This document shows positions 19,370 to 62,811 of a DNA stretch of 64,000 bases, in pieces. Source of the DNA: Caballeronia sordidicola (GTDB lineage: Bacteria > Pseudomonadota > Gammaproteobacteria > Burkholderiales > Burkholderiaceae); assembly GCF_002220365.1 (NCBI RefSeq), contig NZ_MTHB01000191.1, forward strand, positions 62,001-126,000, written 5' to 3'. Numbering within the stretch: the stretch's first letter is position 1; every line of letters begins with the position of its first letter. The notes under the pieces were generated by a model that was not told the origin of the DNA, did no database searches, and was given only the letters and a program-made list of their open reading frames with translations. A program made the translations under genes and the position numbers.

Positions 19370-19435
19370 GACGGCGGGCTCCACAAAAACAGCAAATAAA
19401 AAAAGTGGCGAGATAAAAAACCGAATCCACAATGC

Positions 19436-19460
19436 AAAAAGCCACGGAATTCCGTGGCTT
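19436..19460 (-). terminator. Terminator-like hairpin upstream of argD
   Basis: A perfect palindrome at 19439-19460 (AAGCCACGG and its complement around AATT) is followed on the minus strand by a run of T residues. It probably ends the upstream ferredoxin-reductase gene, but with only 66 bases left before the argD ATG it could also be a leader attenuator. Confidence 0.8.
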
Positions 19461-19666
19461 CATAGTGGCGAAGTGTGCGCCGGTTCGAAAACTCAAGCGC
19501 CAATCCGTGACGAGCCAGCGGCATCCCTAGGGGAGCGGCGAGCGGCGACGTCGAAGAGTGGCGTAAATTTTGAGCATTCGCGAAGAATACGATATGAAGT
19601 TCCTGCGTGTAAACCATGGCGGCCCGATTTTTTGTCGAGCCGCCACGCTTGCCAGCTAAAGTGCGC

Positions 19667-54504: not shown

Positions 54505-54697
54505 TCAACCGCTTGCCAACATGCGTAAAACAACAATACGCATGCTGTTGGAAAGGGTCCCCGCCCAAGCCGCTAGGCCGGCATCCTGAACCTGGGTTCA
54601 AGATTGGTCGCAGTAAGCAGCACCTTGGGCTCATCAGACAGAGTGACGCGCTCGCCAGTGCTACAAGGTCCCACAACCGTGCACAATGGCATTGGTT
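54505..54697 (-). ncRNA. ssrS: 6S RNA
   Basis: 6S RNA mimics an open promoter and sequesters sigma-70 RNA polymerase in stationary phase. The minus strand here contains the conserved core CTTGAACCCAGGTTCAGGA and then GCGGCTTGGGCGGGGACC, close to the 3' half of proteobacterial 6S. A closing stem is suggested by AACC/TGCCA near the 5' end pairing with TGGCA/GGTT near the 3' end. A -10-like TATATT sits at 54703-54708. The position between zapA and the EVE gene is typical. The ends are estimates, and a hairpin CATGCGTA...TACGCATG decorates the 3' arm. Confidence 0.85.
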
Positions 54698-54938
54698 CAA
54701 GGAATATATGACCTTGGCAAACCAGGCAGGGAGCAATCACTTTACACCAATCGACGAGACGATGCAGCAATGATCCAGGAAAACTTTATGGCGACCGATG
54801 ATTTTGTTAAATGCTGCAAAACATGACATGAAAACGCAGAATCGTGTCAACACTCCGGCAACAAAATAACATCTCGACATTAGCTTGCGCGTCAAGCATT
54901 TAAAGCAAATTCCAGCCACGGCACAGACTTACCAGCGC

Positions 54939-54974: not shown

Positions 54975-55282
54975 GCTTCATATTGTGAAATGACGACACC
55001 CAGTTGCTCGTTCATTTGATGCATGGTGCGACGAATTTCTTCGGCCGGAAACGCTTCGCCGTGACGCACGCTGTTTTGCAGCTTCAGCAATTCCGACGCG
55101 AGCGACAATGCCGCCATCACCGCGATCCGATCCGTGCCGCGCACGCTGCTTGCGCTTCGCACTTTCGACATTTCCGCATCTACGCGCGCTACCGCTTCGC
55201 GCAGAGCGCCTTCGGTTTCAGGCGAGCACGCGAGCCGGTACGGCGCACCGAGAATGGATACCTCGATCTGTTTCGTCGTCAT
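54968..55282 (-). CDS. zapA: Cell division protein ZapA
   Basis: ZapA crosslinks FtsZ filaments at the division ring. The 104 residues have the N-terminal beta domain (QIEVSILGAPYRLACSPE) and a C-terminal coiled coil, with RIAVMAALSLASELLKL as the conserved core. Its start overlaps the stop of the coiled-coil gene before it (ATGA), and 6S RNA lies downstream on the same strand. Confidence 0.94.
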   Translation of the reverse strand: MTTKQIEVSILGAPYRLACSPETEGALREAVARVDAEMSKVRSASSVRGTDRIAVMAALSLASELLKLQNSVRHGEAFPAEEIRRTMHQMNEQLGVVISQYEAL

Positions 55283-55662
55283 GCCTTTTCTCCGTGATGG
55301 TGTGATTCTTCATGCAACGCACCGTGCGCCGAGTCGGCGGTATCCGGTTCGATGCCGCCATCAGGTGGCAAGAGGGCAAGCTGGTTATCCGGCTCCGGTG
55401 CAGCTTTCGCACGCGGCAATTTTTCGAGAATCGCGTTGAGGCGAATCTGCGCGTCGTCGATCTTGGCCGACAGCGAGTCGCGCTCCGCCACCAGTGCGTC
55501 GCGTTCTTCGCGCATGGCCGCAAGTTCGCCTTGCGTGTTGGCATAGTCGGCGCGCAACTGTTCGAGTTGCTGGGCCAACGCATTGTGAGCTTGATGATGG
55601 CGTTCGCTGATCTTGATCAGCCGGCCGATATTCTGTGACAGTGATTCGAGTTCGTTGAGCAT
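55279..55662 (-). CDS. ZapB-like coiled-coil protein
   Basis: The 127-residue protein is mostly a single coiled coil (about residues 1-80, with heptad-rich QQLEQLRADYANTQGELAAM), then a flexible acidic tail with a His-rich end. It overlaps zapA by four bases and resembles the DUF904/ZapB-type genes found at this place in Burkholderiales. A role in the FtsZ ring next to ZapA is inferred. The start at 55662 follows AGAGGA. Confidence 0.75.
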   Translation of the reverse strand: MLNELESLSQNIGRLIKISERHHQAHNALAQQLEQLRADYANTQGELAAMREERDALVAERDSLSAKIDDAQIRLNAILEKLPRAKAAPEPDNQLALLPPDGGIEPDTADSAHGALHEESHHHGEKA

Positions 55663-55974
55663 GTGCTGCGTCCTCTTAAGACCTCGCATTTTAGCGCGCT
55701 TCTCCGGCGCTTCAGAAATTTGGTTCGTTTCCAGACGTAACAGCAGTCGGTCTTCAAAGCATGGGCGCGGCCCTTCATTTGTAGGGGGAAACGTTTTATA
55801 GGGATTCATTCACCCATTCATTCAGGCGTGCGAGCGTTTGTCCGAATATCGCGCGGGAGCCTTTAAAACAGGGGTAAAACGAATGACAGAACCACAGCAA
55901 AGGCAATCTGTACGCCTGCATTGTCCTGCTTTCTTGACGGGTCATTGCGCCGCTCTTAAACTGCCGCCACCTCG
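55663..55974. other. Gene-free stretch between the zap operon and the cobalamin leader
   Basis: About 310 bases contain the divergent promoters of the zapB-like gene and the cobalamin leader. I see no convincing reading frame. Confidence 0.4.
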
Positions 55975-56240
55975 GCGCTCACGCGTGCCTGCCAGCGCGG
56001 AGTCTGATGGCAAGCCGCAAGCGAAGTCAGCCTGGATGGGCCAACCAGCGCTGCCCCGCAACGGTAAGCGACTACATCGCAAGTTGCAAGTCGGGCCTGG
56101 GGTGCATTGCCAGCGCAGTGTCCGGCAGATTTCACCACTCGAAAAACGCGTCCTGCAGCAAGTGTTGGCCGTTGCGCGTCCTCGCGCGGGAAGGCGGGCC
56201 GATGCGTCGCCAGCCCGGTGCTTGTGCGGATCGTCGAGGC
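55975..56240 (+). ncRNA. Cobalamin riboswitch (AdoCbl type), divergent
   Basis: The core CTGCCCCGCAACGGTAAG at 56051-56068 is the highly conserved centre of cobalamin riboswitches. A GGGAAGGCG segment at 56188-56196 and a B12-box-like CAGCCCGG at 56211-56218 follow in the right order. The 5' GGGAA-CCGGTG element and the second half of the B12 box are poorly conserved. The switch should turn the cobalamin uptake and assembly operon off when the vitamin is abundant. Its ends are approximate. Confidence 0.75.
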
Positions 56241-56289
56241 AAGGGTGAAATCGGCGGGATGTGGTGCAGCGCAATGCTCGCACCGGTCG

Positions 56290-56517
56290 CTCGATCATAT
56301 AGAAGCGGTTAACGGCAATGTGTCCGTGCTGTATGAATTGAATGCCGTTGGCGCTCTTGTGCAGGTCTTCACCAGGAACGGCGGCGATCATCCGCCGTGC
56401 TTCAACCTTCGACGATCTGTACTATCCGTTCAGCGGCGATTCGTCGATCGCCCCATGCGCTGCCATTCCCCGGAGCGGCACGCTTATCGGTAACCTCGCC
56501 CCCTCTTCAAAGGACTA
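56290..56517 (+). pseudogene. btuB: Remnant of btuB, TonB-dependent cobalamin receptor
   Basis: Two fragments in different frames match known BtuB landmarks. Frame one from 56293 reads DHIEAVNGNVSVLYELNAVG and then ALVQVFTRNGGD, the plug-domain pattern RIE-V-G-S-LY-A-G-VQIFTR-G. Frame two from 56390 reads RASTFDDLYYPFSGDSSIAP, matching the receptor barrel segment FRAP-TF-DLYYP with the NPNLKPE-like region behind it. Several hundred codons that should lie before, between and after are missing. The remnant sits between the riboswitch and btuC, where btuB would be expected. Confidence 0.75.
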
Positions 56518-56583
56518 GCAGCTTGTGCACCTGTACAACACGCCGCGTCGCGGTGCCTCTGACGCGCTCAACTGAGCGCAGCA

Positions 56584-57591
56584 GTGAACGTTAAGCGCAT
56601 GAACGCCCAGCGCGCTTTCATGGTCTGGACCGTGCTTGGCCTGGCCGCGCTCGCGGTGTTCGTGGCGTCGCTGGCGCTCGGGAGTATCGCCGTCTCGCCG
56701 CTGCGGGTGATGCAAGCGCTCGCGTCCCGGTCAACTGATGTGATCGATGAAATCGTGCTCAGCCTGCGCTTGCCGCGCGCGCTCGGCGGCTTTGCGGCGG
56801 GTGCCTTGCTTGGCATGGCCGGCGCGCTGCTGCAGGTTTTGCTGCGCAATCCGCTGGCCGAACCGTATGTGCTTGGCGTATCCGGCGGCGCGGCCGCGTT
56901 CGCGCTCGCCGCGATGTTGTTCTCCCTGTCGTGGTGGAGCGTCGACGTTGCCGCGTTCGCGGGCGCATTCTTATCGATACTCCTTGTGCTCGGCTTGGCC
57001 CGGCGCGAGTTGTGGCGTGGGGAACCGCAGGACACATCGCCGAGATTGCTGCTCACCGGCGCGGTGATCGCGGCGGGGTGGGGCGCGTTGATCACGCTCA
57101 TGCTCGCTGTCGCGCCTGAGAGTCGCCTGCGCGGCATGGTGTTCTGGCTGACCGGCGACCTGAACGGCGTCTCGATGCCATGGACCGCCTTGATCGCGCT
57201 GGTGATCGCGTTGATCGCTATCGTACCGGCCGCGCCCCAGCTCAACATACTGCTGCGTGGCGACGTAGCGGCCGAGGCGCTCGGCGTGCGCGTCGTGCAG
57301 TTGAGAGTGCGCGTGTATCTCGTCGCGTCGCTGGCGGCCGCCGCTGCCGTGACGACGGCCGGGACCATTGGTTTTATCGGGCTCGTGGTGCCGCATGTAT
57401 TGCGGCTCGCGTTCGGCAACGATCAGCGCATGCTGCTGCCTGCATCGGCGCTGGCTGGCGGGCTGGCTGTGATGGGAGCGGACCTGATCGCGCGTACGGT
57501 GATCGCGCCGGCGCAGTTGCCGGTGGGCGTGATCACCGCGCTGATCGGCGTGCCGGTGTTCTTGTGGATGCTCCTCAGGCGCGCACCATGA
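56584..57591 (+). CDS. btuC: Cobalamin ABC transporter permease (BtuC-like)
   Basis: This 335-residue FecCD/BtuC-type permease should move cobalamin or its precursors across the inner membrane. About ten helices, the LRLPRALGGFAAGALLGMAGALLQ-type entry (seen as RLPRALGGFAAGALLGMAGA), NPLAEPYVLGVSGGAA and GTIGFIGLVVPHVLRL are diagnostic. The GTG at 56584 is used; an ATG five codons later is possible. The stop overlaps the btuD start (ATGA). Confidence 0.92.
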   Translation: MNVKRMNAQRAFMVWTVLGLAALAVFVASLALGSIAVSPLRVMQALASRSTDVIDEIVLSLRLPRALGGFAAGALLGMAGALLQVLLRNPLAEPYVLGVSGGAAAFALAAMLFSLSWWSVDVAAFAGAFLSILLVLGLARRELWRGEPQDTSPRLLLTGAVIAAGWGALITLMLAVAPESRLRGMVFWLTGDLNGVSMPWTALIALVIALIAIVPAAPQLNILLRGDVAAEALGVRVVQLRVRVYLVASLAAAAAVTTAGTIGFIGLVVPHVLRLAFGNDQRMLLPASALAGGLAVMGADLIARTVIAPAQLPVGVITALIGVPVFLWMLLRRAP

Positions 57592-58385
57592 TCGGACTTC
57601 AGATCACTCAACTCACGTTGCGCGCGGGAACTCGTGCAGCAACGCGCGTGTTGGTCGCGGATCTCACGCAGAGCTTCGCGCCCGGCGAAATGTGGTGCGT
57701 CGCCGGGCCGAACGGTGCAGGCAAGACGACGCTGATTGCGGCGATGGCGGGGGTATCGAAGACGGCATCGAATGCGATTTCACTCGATGGAAGAGCGTTG
57801 AGCGCCTGGGGCGCCAGCGAACTTGCCCGCCGCCGCGCGTTGATGCCGCAAGCTACGCACGATGCATTCAGCGCCACCGTACTGGACACCGTCATGCTCA
57901 ATCGCTTTCCGCATCTCACCGGCTGGGGCTGGGAAAGCAACGCGGACCGCGCGGCTGCACACGCGGCGCTGGATATGCTCGGTCTCGCTGAATTCGCTTC
58001 ACGCGATGTCCTGTCGTTATCAGGTGGCGAACGTCAACGCGTGGCGCTGGCCGCGACCTTGTGCCAGAACGCACCGCTATTGCTGCTTGATGAACCGCTC
58101 GCGCATCTCGACGTGCATCATCAGATCGATTGCCTTGAAGCGTTGCGCGGATGGGTTGGATCGAAACAACGCAGCGTGATTTTCTCGTGTCACGATCTGA
58201 ACCTTGCCCGGCGTTTCGCCACACACGCTTTACTGCTCGATGGCGCGGGCCACACGCATGCAGGCCCCGTCCGCGATGTCCTCACGCCCGAGCGTGCCGG
58301 CGCCGCGTTCGGATATCCGCTTACCTTGATCCAGCAGGATGGTCACGAGGCGCTCGTGCCCGTGATGCGTTCAACCTCACCGTGA
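57588..58385 (+). CDS. btuD: Cobalamin ABC transporter ATP-binding protein (BtuD-like)
   Basis: The 265-residue ATPase pairs with BtuC. It has Walker A GPNGAGKTT, the Q-loop in LMPQATHD, the signature LSLSGGERQRVALAA, Walker B LLLLDEPLAHLDVHHQ and the H-loop FSCHD. It starts inside the btuC stop and is probably coupled to it. The binding protein of the set, btuF, lies 2.4 kb downstream on the other strand. Confidence 0.93.
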   Translation: MIGLQITQLTLRAGTRAATRVLVADLTQSFAPGEMWCVAGPNGAGKTTLIAAMAGVSKTASNAISLDGRALSAWGASELARRRALMPQATHDAFSATVLDTVMLNRFPHLTGWGWESNADRAAAHAALDMLGLAEFASRDVLSLSGGERQRVALAATLCQNAPLLLLDEPLAHLDVHHQIDCLEALRGWVGSKQRSVIFSCHDLNLARRFATHALLLDGAGHTHAGPVRDVLTPERAGAAFGYPLTLIQQDGHEALVPVMRSTSP

Positions 58386-58393
58386 ACAACACT

Positions 58394-59443
58394 ATGAACG
58401 ACATACTTCCCCGTCCTGAACCGCTCGATCGATCGATGGCGGCCGAGCTGCAACAGGTGATCGATACGAAGACAAAACCGCCCGGCAGTCTCGGGCGGCT
58501 CGAATCGCTGGGGCTTCAAATCGGGCTGATTCAACGGACTTTGCGGCCACGTATCGAGCGGCCGGCGATCCTTGTTTTTGCCGGCGATCACGGCATCGCG
58601 GCCGAAGGCGTGAGTCCGTTCCCGCAGGAAGTCACCGTGCAGATGGTCGCGAATTTCATCGCGGGCGGGGCAGCGATCAATGCGTTGTCGAAGGCGGCGG
58701 GCATGACGCTCGAAGTGGTGGACGCGGGTGTGGCGAGTGCGTCGCCGGGAGCGGCTGGGTTCGTCGATGCAGCGATCCGGCGCGGCGGTACGCGCAACTT
58801 TGCGCACGAACCGGCGATGACGCGCGACGAAGTATTGCAAGCGATCGAGCGTGGGGCTGCACGCGTGCGTTTTCACGCGGCGCTCGGGACCAACGTGATC
58901 GGCTTCGGCGAGATGGGGATCGCGAACACATCGGCGGCGGCGTGCCTGATGAGCCGGATTTGCTGCGTTGAAATTGATGCGTGCGTCGGACGTGGCACGG
59001 GTCTCGACGACGCCGGCTTGAACCACAAGCGCGGTGTGCTTGCCGCGGCGTTGGCGAAACACGCGGCATCCACCGATCCAATCGAGACGCTGGCCACTTT
59101 CGGCGGCTTTGAGATCGCGATGATCGTAGGCGCTTTCCTTGCGGCGGCGGAAGCCCGGATGACGATTCTCGTCGACGGTTTTATCGTTACGTCGGCATTG
59201 CTTGTGGCTCACGCGCTTAACCCGGCGGTCCTTGACTACTGCGTGTTCGCTCATGCATCGGATGAAACGGGGCATCGGCGCATGCTGGAGCATCTCAACG
59301 CGGCGCCGTTGCTGCAACTTGGATTGCGTCTCGGCGAAGGCACTGGTGCCGCGCTCGCTTTGCCGTTGTTGCGCGCGGCCGTGGCGTTCATCAATGAAAT
59401 GGCGAGCTTCGAATCCGCCGGTGTGTCCGACAAGGCGGTGTGA
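58394..59443 (+). CDS. cobT: Nicotinate-nucleotide-dimethylbenzimidazole phosphoribosyltransferase
   Basis: CobT activates the lower ligand base as alpha-ribazole phosphate for cobalamin assembly. The 349 residues show DTKTKPPGSLGRLE near the start, FAGDHGIAAEGVSPFPQEVT, GEMGIANTSAAA and the VGRGTGLDDAGL segment. The late EGTGAALALPLL is also typical. The ATG at 58394 is used; a GTG at 58382 overlapping the btuD stop would add four residues. Confidence 0.96.
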   Translation: MNDILPRPEPLDRSMAAELQQVIDTKTKPPGSLGRLESLGLQIGLIQRTLRPRIERPAILVFAGDHGIAAEGVSPFPQEVTVQMVANFIAGGAAINALSKAAGMTLEVVDAGVASASPGAAGFVDAAIRRGGTRNFAHEPAMTRDEVLQAIERGAARVRFHAALGTNVIGFGEMGIANTSAAACLMSRICCVEIDACVGRGTGLDDAGLNHKRGVLAAALAKHAASTDPIETLATFGGFEIAMIVGAFLAAAEARMTILVDGFIVTSALLVAHALNPAVLDYCVFAHASDETGHRRMLEHLNAAPLLQLGLRLGEGTGAALALPLLRAAVAFINEMASFESAGVSDKAV

Positions 59444-59450
59444 TCCTGTC

Positions 59451-60212
59451 ATGAACCGGCCCTCGCAGGAACTGCGTTACTTCTTCACCGCGCTCGGGTA
59501 CTTCACCCGCGTGCCGGTGCCGCGTTGGGTCGGTTTCGAAGCGCATTATCTGAATGCGGCAGCGCGCTATTTTCCGTTGATCGGCGCGCTGGTCGGCGGG
59601 CTCGGCGCGGTTGTCTATCTCGCCGCGCTGCAGGTGTTTCCGTCGGGGGTGGCCGTGTTGTTGTCGATGGCGGCAACCTTGCTTGTCACCGGTGCGTTCC
59701 ACGAAGATGGCCTCGCCGATTGCGCCGATGCCTTCGGCGGCGCATACAACCGCGAGGACGTGTTGCGCATCATGCACGACTCGCGGATCGGCGCATTCGG
59801 GGCTATTGCGCTGATCGTCGTGCTTGCGCTGAAGTGGCAGACTCTTGCCACGATGCTGCCGTTGCGCACCGCATGGATGATCGTCGCGGCGCATGCGGCA
59901 AGCCGCACGTTCGCTATCAGCTACCTCTGCACGCTCGACTATGTACGGGCTGTTGGCAAGGCAAAACCGGTCGCGCAGAAGATGAGCGCGGGTGCGTTCG
60001 GTTTAGCCGCGCTGTTCGGATTGCCCTGGCTTTTCTGGCCCGACTGGCGGCTGGGATGCGTGATGGTCGTGGCCCTCGGCGTATTGCGTTTTGCGATGGG
60101 GCGCTACTTCGTCAAGCGTATCGGCGGTTATACCGGCGATTGCCTTGGCTTCGCGCAGCAAATTTTTGAACTTGCTATCTACCTGATTGGACTCGGATGG
60201 ATCTCGTCCTGA
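59451..60212 (+). CDS. cobS: Cobalamin synthase (adenosylcobinamide-GDP ribazoletransferase)
   Basis: CobS joins adenosylcobinamide-GDP with alpha-ribazole (phosphate) in the inner membrane. The 253-residue hydrophobic protein has the N-terminal LGYFTRVPVP motif, the metal-binding segment HEDGLADCADAFGG and RIMHDSRIGAFGA. It starts 7 bases after cobT and overlaps cobC by 16 bases. Confidence 0.95.
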   Translation: MNRPSQELRYFFTALGYFTRVPVPRWVGFEAHYLNAAARYFPLIGALVGGLGAVVYLAALQVFPSGVAVLLSMAATLLVTGAFHEDGLADCADAFGGAYNREDVLRIMHDSRIGAFGAIALIVVLALKWQTLATMLPLRTAWMIVAAHAASRTFAISYLCTLDYVRAVGKAKPVAQKMSAGAFGLAALFGLPWLFWPDWRLGCVMVVALGVLRFAMGRYFVKRIGGYTGDCLGFAQQIFELAIYLIGLGWISS

Positions 60213-60773: not shown

Positions 60774-61685
60774 TTACTTCGGACGTCGTGTTCTCGCTAC
60801 TTCAAGGTTTTCACACAACGTAGCCGCCCCGAGTGCAAGACGCGGTGTTGGCCGGTTGATCAGATCACCGTCGATACCGAACAGATTGCCGCGCGCGACG
60901 GCTTTGATCGTTGGCCATTTGCGCCACGCATCCAGCGAGGGCAACGCATGCTCCGAACTCGTCGCGCCGGGCGTGGCCGTCACGATCGCTTCGGGATCGG
61001 CGGCGAGTACCGCTTCAGTCGAGATGGTGGGCACCAGCGGTTTCAGGTCGGTGAAGACGTTGTGGCCGCCGCATAGATCGATCACTTCGCTGATGATGTG
61101 CGTCCCGTTGAGCGTCATCAGCGGGTCGTCCCAGACTTGATAAAACACGCTCACCGGCGGCTGGCTCGAATAACGCGTCCGCAAGCCGGCGATGTCATGA
61201 CGGAATGCGTCCGACGCCTTATTCGCCTGAGCTGATGTCCCGAGCAGAACGCCGAGTTTATCGATGGTGACAGGGATATCGTCCAACCTGTGCGGCTCGC
61301 TGAAAAACAGCGGCACATGCAGTTCGCGCAGCCTGTCGATCTGACGCATCGCGTTGCCATGCCGCCAGACGACGATCAGGTCGGGTTTCATCGCGACGAT
61401 GCGTTCAAGGTCCAGCGATTTGTTATCGCCAACACGCGGGATGGCTTTGGCTTGCGGCGGGTAGTCGCTATAGCTGACCGCACCGACAACGCGCGCACCG
61501 CCGCCCGCCGCGAACAGCAGTTCGGTGACGTGCGGCGCAAGGCTGACGATGCGCTGTGCGGGGGCGGCGAGGGTGACGGTGGCGCCGGTGTCGTCGGTGA
61601 CGGTGAGGGCATCGGCCCGGGCTTTGACCGATGCAAAAATCGCAGCAGCGATAAACGTCAGCGTGAGGAAGCGGCGCAAAATCAT
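60774..61685 (-). CDS. btuF: Cobalamin-binding periplasmic protein (BtuF-like)
   Basis: The 303-residue protein has a signal peptide (FLTLTFIAAAIFASVKARA) and a class III periplasmic binding domain that begins LTVTDDTGATVTLAAPAQRI. The BtuF-like core includes SLAPHVTELLFAAGGG and SYSDYPPQAKAIPRVG. It probably captures cobalamin for BtuCD. The ATG at 61685 fits the signal peptide; in-frame codons 5' of it have no ribosome binding site. It is the last gene of the minus-strand cob operon. Confidence 0.9.
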   Translation of the reverse strand: MILRRFLTLTFIAAAIFASVKARADALTVTDDTGATVTLAAPAQRIVSLAPHVTELLFAAGGGARVVGAVSYSDYPPQAKAIPRVGDNKSLDLERIVAMKPDLIVVWRHGNAMRQIDRLRELHVPLFFSEPHRLDDIPVTIDKLGVLLGTSAQANKASDAFRHDIAGLRTRYSSQPPVSVFYQVWDDPLMTLNGTHIISEVIDLCGGHNVFTDLKPLVPTISTEAVLAADPEAIVTATPGATSSEHALPSLDAWRKWPTIKAVARGNLFGIDGDLINRPTPRLALGAATLCENLEVARTRRPK

Positions 61686-61803
61686 GAGGTGTGTTGGTTC
61701 GGGTGCGTCATGCATGGCGAGCGCTGTATAGGAAGCGCGTTTTGTGATCGAAGTTGTTTGGAAACGCGGTGGATAAACCGCCTTGAGAGAAGCGAGTAAT
61801 CGT

Positions 61804-62811
61804 TCAGCGGACCGCATTCACGGCGGCGTTAAACGCTTCGTCAAAGCGCGCCCATTCCTCTTCCGATCCCGTTAAACCAATCCGCAAACTTGGCAACTCG
61901 CCGTGTTCGAAGAGCCGTGTCCAGATTCCGCGCGTGGCCAAGGCATGCTGCAGCGCCACCGCTTTGTCCGTCTCGAACCATACAAAAAGCGGCGTTGCAT
62001 GGGGATCGAAACCTTGACTGCGGATCAACGCTGCCAGCCTTGCGCTGTCACGAGCCAGCGTGGCGCGAGTGTCGGCTTGCCACGAAAGATCATTGAACGC
62101 GGCCTGCACCGCGTGTCGCGCTGGACCGCTTACGGTCCATGCTCCGAGCGTTTGCGAAAGCTCATCGAGCAGGGGCTCCGACGCGAGCACAAACCCCGCG
62201 CGAATCCCAGCCAGCCCATAAAACTTGCCGACCGAGCGCAGCACGACCAACCCTTTCCGTCCACTTTCCGATGCCAACGAGATGGCCGAATCACCGTAGG
62301 CATCGGCGAAGGCTTCATCGACGATCAACGTGCCGCCGCGAGCGGCCAATTGCTCATGCCACCGCAGCAGGACATCACGCGTGATACGTTCGGTCGTCGG
62401 ATTATTAGGATTCGCAACGATCACATGATCGATGTCATCCTTCAAATCGGCCGATGCAACATCGAGGCCGACTATCCGATGCCCCGCCCGTTCAAACGCC
62501 GGTCCGTACTCACCGTAGGTCAACGGCGCAATAGCCGCAACGCCGCGCTTCAACAAGCCCGGTAACGCGCGAATCGCCGCTTGGCTGCCCGCGACAGGCA
62601 GCGCCCCCGGCGCGTCATAGTGACGCGCTGCAAGCTCAGCCAGGCCATCGGCGTCTTCGGGCAAGCGGCGCCAGGCGTCCACTGGCACGGGCGGGACCGG
62701 ATACGCTCGCGGACTGATCCCCGTCGATAAATCCAGCCATTCGCCCAGCGCAATTCCGTATTGACGCGCGGCTTCCCGCAGATTCCCGCCATGCCGGATG
62801 GGATCAGCCAT
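61804..62811 (-). CDS. cobD: Threonine-phosphate decarboxylase (CobD type)
   Basis: This PLP enzyme makes (R)-1-aminopropan-2-ol O-phosphate, the linker of the lower cobalamin ligand. The 335 residues have GGNLREAARQYG at the start, LDLSTGISP, VANPNNPTTE, DEAFADAYGD and the PLP lysine in RSVGKFYGLAGIRAGF. It overlaps cbiB by eight bases. The name CobC is used for the same protein in the aerobic pathway nomenclature. Confidence 0.93.
   Translation of the reverse strand: MADPIRHGGNLREAARQYGIALGEWLDLSTGISPRAYPVPPVPVDAWRRLPEDADGLAELAARHYDAPGALPVAGSQAAIRALPGLLKRGVAAIAPLTYGEYGPAFERAGHRIVGLDVASADLKDDIDHVIVANPNNPTTERITRDVLLRWHEQLAARGGTLIVDEAFADAYGDSAISLASESGRKGLVVLRSVGKFYGLAGIRAGFVLASEPLLDELSQTLGAWTVSGPARHAVQAAFNDLSWQADTRATLARDSARLAALIRSQGFDPHATPLFVWFETDKAVALQHALATRGIWTRLFEHGELPSLRIGLTGSEEEWARFDEAFNAAVNAVR

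Follow-up and report, generated by a model that had tools for sequence, protein, structure and literature searches.

The locus between the zapB-like gene and btuC

The window analysed here is a stretch of 64,000 nucleotides from Caballeronia sordidicola (G000:C3:62001-126000, G000 being the label of the window's own genome). It contains a set of B12 genes in which btuC, btuD, cobT and cobS run in the same direction and btuF lies on the opposite strand (Table 1). The slot in front of btuC is bordered on its left side by a gene that we take to be zapB-like, and contains a promoter-like site, a truncated cobalamin riboswitch aptamer and three pieces of a btuB gene. The top NCBIfam model for btuC is BtuC (PRK03784, 1.9e-68), with a score under the model cut-off.

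Table 1. Features of the btuB slot and of the adjoining B12 genes, in window coordinates.
Feature	Position	Strand	Evidence and remarks
zapB-like gene	55279..55809	-	left edge of the btuB slot
Sigma-70-like promoter, TTGACG-17-TAAACT	55934..55962	+	sole promoter-like site in 55700-56650; shuffles expect 0.2
Truncated cobalamin riboswitch aptamer	55956..56218	+	core 56035-56095; left end read off the alignment
btuB remnant 1, plug region, residues 102-176	56200..56412	+	blastn to G046, 75% identity, E 9.7e-40; tblastn 3.4e-18
btuB remnant 2, barrel region, residues 422-451	56395..56480	+	blastn to G046, 82% identity, E 5.0e-18; frame differs from remnant 1
btuB remnant 3, C-terminal residues ~597-620, continuing into btuC	56510..56583	+	blastn of 56510-56684 to G046, 87% identity, E 2.8e-59
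btuC, B12 ABC permease, open frame	56584..57591	+	Pfam FecCD 7.9e-81
btuD, ABC ATPase, open frame	57588..58385	+	Pfam ABC_tran 1.6e-27
cobT	58382..59443	+	Pfam DBI_PRT 1.6e-131
cobS	59451..60212	+	Pfam CobS 7.6e-53
btuF, periplasmic B12-binding protein, open frame	60774..61817	-	top NCBIfam BtuF PRK03379, 7.4e-57, under cut-off

The promoter-like site is likely to be the old promoter of the btuB operon. Its alignment columns have a mismatch of 0.069 (71 of 10000 block resamples are as low), compared with 0.214 in the btuB remnant. Compared with plasmids, the locus gave no match in a near search and 221 records in a distant one; the best 8 of these 221 match the ABC permease, the ATPase and the cob genes where features are named.

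Two small RNAs were also observed in the window. A 6S RNA (RF00013, 53.9 bits) lies at 54554-54735 on the minus strand, close to the zapA/zapB-like pair, and this neighbourhood recurs in several loci of other genera. A match to the Burkholderia sRNA BcKCsr7 (RF02884, 88.2 bits) is found at 19435-19590, also on the minus strand.

The btuB remnant

The three btuB pieces are collinear with a 620-residue BtuB and together comprise about 370 bases between the old riboswitch and btuC. The preliminary description had proposed that btuB was deleted in place, leaving two peptides in different frames. Both peptides are indeed present, SVLYELNAVGALVQVFTR in the plus-strand ORF 56107-56493 and RASTFDDLYYPF in the plus-strand ORF 56342-56518, and the deletion in place is borne out by the sister genomes G021 and G046, whose corresponding slot contains a gene for a 620-residue protein. 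With the intact BtuB of G046 as the query, tblastn finds the barrel piece at 6e-4 in addition to the much stronger plug piece (Table 1), and a blastn comparison of the two loci yields four collinear blocks, of which the one spanning the upstream region and the aptamer is 81.5% identical.

In a dinucleotide-shuffle test the plug, barrel and C-terminal pieces score 78.6, 36.2 and 29.3 bits, respectively, while the best of 1000 shuffles reaches 29.3 bits. The C-terminal piece merely equals the best shuffle at the protein level, and its support is therefore the DNA match to the sister (56510-56684), most of the aligned length of which is btuC. The longest plus-strand frame in the slot has 148 codons and is not of receptor length. 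The mismatch to G046 at codon positions 1, 2 and 3 is flat in the remnant (0.19, 0.22 and 0.18), compared with 0.01, 0.01 and 0.12 in the intact btuB of G021 and 0.039, 0.042 and 0.237 in btuC of G000. Codon constraint is thus relaxed, and the remnant has diverged at about the third-position rate, which suggests an early death of this native gene (btuB1) in the lineage.

A Pfam search of the three fragment ORFs gave nothing at E values up to 10, as would be expected if the pieces were chance likenesses or belonged to a small functional gene. We give this explanation practically no credence: none of the 1000 shuffles attains the score of the best piece, the DNA homology to the sisters is collinear, the codon positions are flat and the frame changes between pieces. 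An intact btuB homologous to the pieces occupies the matching position in close relatives; this, together with the lack of a receptor-length frame and of codon constraint, confirms at the level of sequence comparison that 56200-56583 are the remains of btuB.

Other origins were considered and rejected. Chance similarity is ruled out by the shuffles. The G000 assembly has 9.49% contamination, but an artefact of assembly or contamination is rejected as G033, with an assembly of five contigs and 1% contamination, also has the remnant along with an intact copy of the second receptor described below. For a mobile element in the slot, the alignment showed no long insert.

Deletions shared with relatives

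Each of the 58 genus genomes has a match to part of the locus. Forty-one slots were fetched, and the spacing between the left anchor and btuC was measured in them. Eight slots are short: G000 (944 bases), G042 (945), G033 (1160), G055 (1051), G050 (1051), G035 (807), G032 (719) and G029 (703). Another 30 slots measure 2297-2629 bases, with 2532 in G021 and 2529 in G046, which have open frames of 745 and 744 codons, respectively. The remaining three are G044 (1078 bases) and G003 (1810 bases), small genomes with weak or fragmentary btuB1 matches of their own, and G045, from which no distance was obtained.

All eight short slots lack 755-756 bases between residues 176 and 422 (756 bases in the window, where this deletion separates remnants 1 and 2), and all have a C-terminal deletion of 402-406 bases. 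The 5' deletions vary among the eight, except that G000 and G042 have the same 423-base deletion. Judged by eye, the larger internal deletion ends in a short shared GCTTC.

As the two internal deletions are common to the eight genomes, btuB1 probably died once, and this pattern is probably explained by one ancestral inactivation followed by separate erosion in each lineage. A branch of the BtuC tree separates the eight from the other rows with a support of 87, and is not one of the starred branches. The preliminary description would have been contradicted by sister genomes with the same gap in place of btuB. Such a gap does occur, but only in the seven genomes that share the deletions with G000, and the next sisters, G021 and G046, keep the gene.

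A second BtuB-like receptor

The preliminary description also suggested that the strain may rely on another receptor. A PF00593 search finds ten TonB-dependent receptors in G000, and one of them is a second BtuB-like protein with its own riboswitch, a predicted B12 receptor that we call BtuB2. Its gene (G000:C29:32221-34149, minus strand) is unlinked to the window locus and adjoins cobF (TIGR02434, above cut-off). BtuB2 is 30-32% identical to BtuB1. Its best NCBIfam match is the BtuB model TIGR01779 (3.7e-99), with 332.9 bits against a curated cut-off of 599.7; native BtuB1 likewise stays below this cut-off at 407.6 bits. A cobalamin riboswitch (RF01482, 52-61 bits, over the cut-off; 57.1 bits in G000) is found upstream of all six intact copies in the genus. 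With this riboswitch and the adjacent cobF, BtuB2 sits in a B12 gene neighbourhood and is a candidate for B12 uptake.

BtuB2 is present in eight of the 58 genus genomes, and these are exactly the eight in which btuB1 is dead. It is intact in G000, G033, G029, G035, G042 and G055, interrupted in G050 and reduced to a C-terminal piece in G032. Matches of the BtuB2 query in the other genus genomes (E up to 1e-20) are 30-44% identical. Change among the intact copies is third-position biased (for example 0.039, 0.023 and 0.204 relative to G033) and, judged by this bias, BtuB2 is under selection. In other genera RF00174 is found at 111-118 bits upstream of BtuB2 in five of the six loci given. The sixth of these loci is that of G313, whose BtuB2 is the most similar in identity to those of the genus, and no riboswitch is listed for it at E values up to 1. 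In G076 BtuB2 adjoins a LysR regulator gene and metE.

The two genomes with a damaged BtuB2 deserve mention. Both receptors are lost in G032 (8.5 Mb, 100% complete), which retains the btuB1 remnant and the last ~91 residues of BtuB2 (G032:C49 9215-9487) next to an open cobF. G050 (3.9 Mb) has a broken BtuB2 (G050:C178 5900-7803), a dead btuB1 and one cobalamin riboswitch match.

Two receptor types across the family

In a sample of 398 genomes of the family, with up to three candidates scored per genome and limits of E up to 1e-70 for BtuB1 and 1e-90 for BtuB2, BtuB1 is found in 251 genomes, BtuB2 in 81, neither in 66 and both in none. The two types are thus mutually exclusive in this sample; as the genomes are related to one another, the zero overlap is not to be read as a chance probability. 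G009, G015 and G045 (2.8-5.1 Mb), which belong to the same genus as G000, match neither type at these limits.

Thirty loci of other genera, picked to show both types, were compared. BtuB1 lies upstream of btuC in all seven type-1 genomes. The zapB-like gene is found within the fetched 1.5 kb beside btuC in all 23 type-2 loci, and btuB1 fragments (E up to 1e-3) occur in three of these (G076, G392 and G158). Both types are found within each of five other genera examined (g20, g11, g13, g25 and g16). On the BtuC tree (55 rows) the type label requires ten changes, at least eight of which are forced by starred branches; because the choice of genomes aimed at having both types, the ten changes are not a rate.

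Origin of BtuB2 in this clade

This distribution would also be seen if both receptors had been present in the ancestor of the family and each lineage had kept one, with no recent transfer into the present clade. In its favour, five other genera contain both types, the BtuB2 proteins cluster largely by genus, and repeated differential loss would yield mutual exclusion just as well as replacement. Several observations nevertheless make an ancestral pair improbable. BtuB2 of G000 and that of G313, a member of the Paraburkholderia group (g20), are 88% identical, compared with about 75-78% for BtuC of the same pair and 70% for native BtuB1 between genera (G046-G388). When 41 BtuB2 proteins are placed in a tree, the six copies from the genus group with six g20 copies and one g16 copy (SH-aLRT 96), nested within g20, and a single clade of g20 BtuB2 is rejected (p-AU 0.034), although this tree is of a quick kind without bootstrap and the AU test is just significant. 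Finally, none of the other 50 genus genomes keeps a BtuB2 (E up to 1e-20, more than 44% identity).

These comparisons argue with moderate strength that BtuB2 differs in descent from its host lineage. Transfer of BtuB2 into the clade is a better reading than differential loss, with a donor that was probably Paraburkholderia-like. A small mobile carrier was considered and rejected, the three matches in the plasmid collection being Burkholderia replicons of 2.4-3.5 Mb. A search for an empty BtuB2 site in the sister G021 found none, as the matching flanks sit on different contigs. G031 contains a cobF that is 85% identical beside a metE-like gene, without BtuB2 (G031:C8 6864-10037), and this locus is perhaps a relative of the donor locus.

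Fate of the old riboswitch

At the Rfam gathering score no cobalamin riboswitch is detected at the window locus. With relaxed filters RF00174 scores 14.7 bits, against a gathering score of 31.5, and the match covers model positions 51-163 only. The aptamers of the sisters are complete (50.6 bits in G046 and 49.0 bits in G021, over model positions 1-189). In the alignment to G046 the aptamer extends over reference positions 317-597, and the match of the window stops at 571 as the deletion junction has removed the 3' closing strands (572-597). In addition, the conserved GCCCCCGC stretch has lost one C. Among the other short-slot genomes the aptamer scores 28.2 bits in G035, 23.7 in G042 and 21.3 in G033, while G055, G050, G032 and G029 have no cobalamin match at this locus at E values up to 10.

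The aptamer core (reference 401-460) has a mismatch of 0.061, compared with 0.214 in the btuB remnant, and only two of 10000 block resamples are as low. Conservation of the other parts is less clear than that of the core: 0.075 for 481-500 (475 of 10000), 0.134 for 541-580 (1070) and 0.213 for 361-400 (5209). The aptamer's 5' core (window 56040-56100) is conserved far beyond the btuB remnant, also in four genomes that lack the 3' half.

In the preliminary description the riboswitch was still thought to govern btuCD and the cob genes. The low mismatch of the core would fit a working element, and so would the situation in other genera without btuB1. Of the 23 type-2 loci 17 are given: five have retained a riboswitch in front of btuC (49-71 bits), two have a weak one, and in ten none is listed at E values up to 1; the joint between riboswitch and btuC is therefore viable as such. 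The window aptamer itself fails to support continued regulation of btuCD-cobTS, which we regard as having only a small chance of being correct. It has lost its 3' closing strands and the C in the conserved stretch, none of the eight short-slot genomes reaches the gathering score and four show no match at all, and the leader is no more stable than its own shuffles (z = 1.35). Because the 3' closing strands are gone and the score is 14.7 bits compared with 49-51 bits in the sisters, B12 control through this aptamer appears unlikely. As far as can be read from the sequences, the riboswitch-btuC joint exists in other genera but is without recognisable working order in the window. Given the unusually conserved core, some residual RNA function may persist. 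Most simply, the riboswitch would have outlived its gene and then failed in one lineage after another.

Proposed history

We consider it very probable that the dead btuB1 is explained by xenologous replacement, after which the old gene decayed in place. In this history, the ancestor of the eight genomes would have had a normal riboswitch-btuB1-btuCD-cobTS operon and would then have gained, probably from a Paraburkholderia-like donor, an unlinked btuB2 next to cobF that has a riboswitch of its own. Now dispensable, btuB1 would have been inactivated by the two shared internal deletions, and its remains would have eroded further, with each lineage following its own path. Both the promoter of the operon and its ABC transporter have been retained. 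The riboswitch would have survived the gene for some time before its 3' part was lost separately in several lineages and, with this part lost, btuCD-cobTS are now probably transcribed from the old leader free of B12 repression.

In the eight genomes the death of one gene can be followed in stages, beside a promoter and a transporter that were kept; a candidate for its replacement is at hand, and the two intact sisters serve as the reference. This series orders events, placing gene loss before riboswitch loss, and is a natural experiment on how a riboswitch behaves without its gene. That no genome of the family sample combines the two B12 receptor types raises a testable question of why only one is kept.

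A wider and more tentative idea, which we hold to be rather doubtful, is that two mutually exclusive BtuB lineages repeatedly replace each other in the Burkholderiaceae, possibly as holding both is costly, and that the orphan riboswitch is either re-used for btuC or decays through a half-aptamer stage with its core under selection. The replacement count behind this idea is the minimum of eight forced changes among 55 chosen genomes. The cost of both receptors possibly lies in a double target for phages or bacteriocins or in competition for TonB. Re-use of the orphan riboswitch for btuC is seen in several g11 genomes and one g25 genome, and the clade of the window would represent the half-aptamer stage.

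Comparison with known systems

No report of btuB replacement in this family was found in the open-access literature by titles and abstract openings. No paper on recurrent either-or use of BtuB types or on the late death of an orphaned riboswitch was found there either, which leaves absence unproven; these parts might be new to a specialist.

The closest known arrangement is the btuB-btuCD-cob operon under RF00174 in the sisters G021 and G046. The window resembles it in the slot, the promoter-like site, the position of btuC as the next gene and the recognisable btuB pieces, and differs from it in that btuB is cut down to a remnant and the aptamer is truncated.

Displacement of a gene by a xenologous (non-orthologous) one, with later decay of the old copy as a pseudogene, is a known kind of event. 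The present case is like it in that the native gene is dead in just those genomes that have a gene of other descent with apparently the same role. It is unlike it in that both types occur within five other genera and that no genome of the family sample matches both.

A further related case is that of Bacteroides genomes with several BtuB receptors, often encoded together (PMC10404256). The likeness lies in the use of diverged BtuB types for B12 uptake, and the difference in that several receptors often occur together in Bacteroides, whereas 0/398 genomes here match both types.
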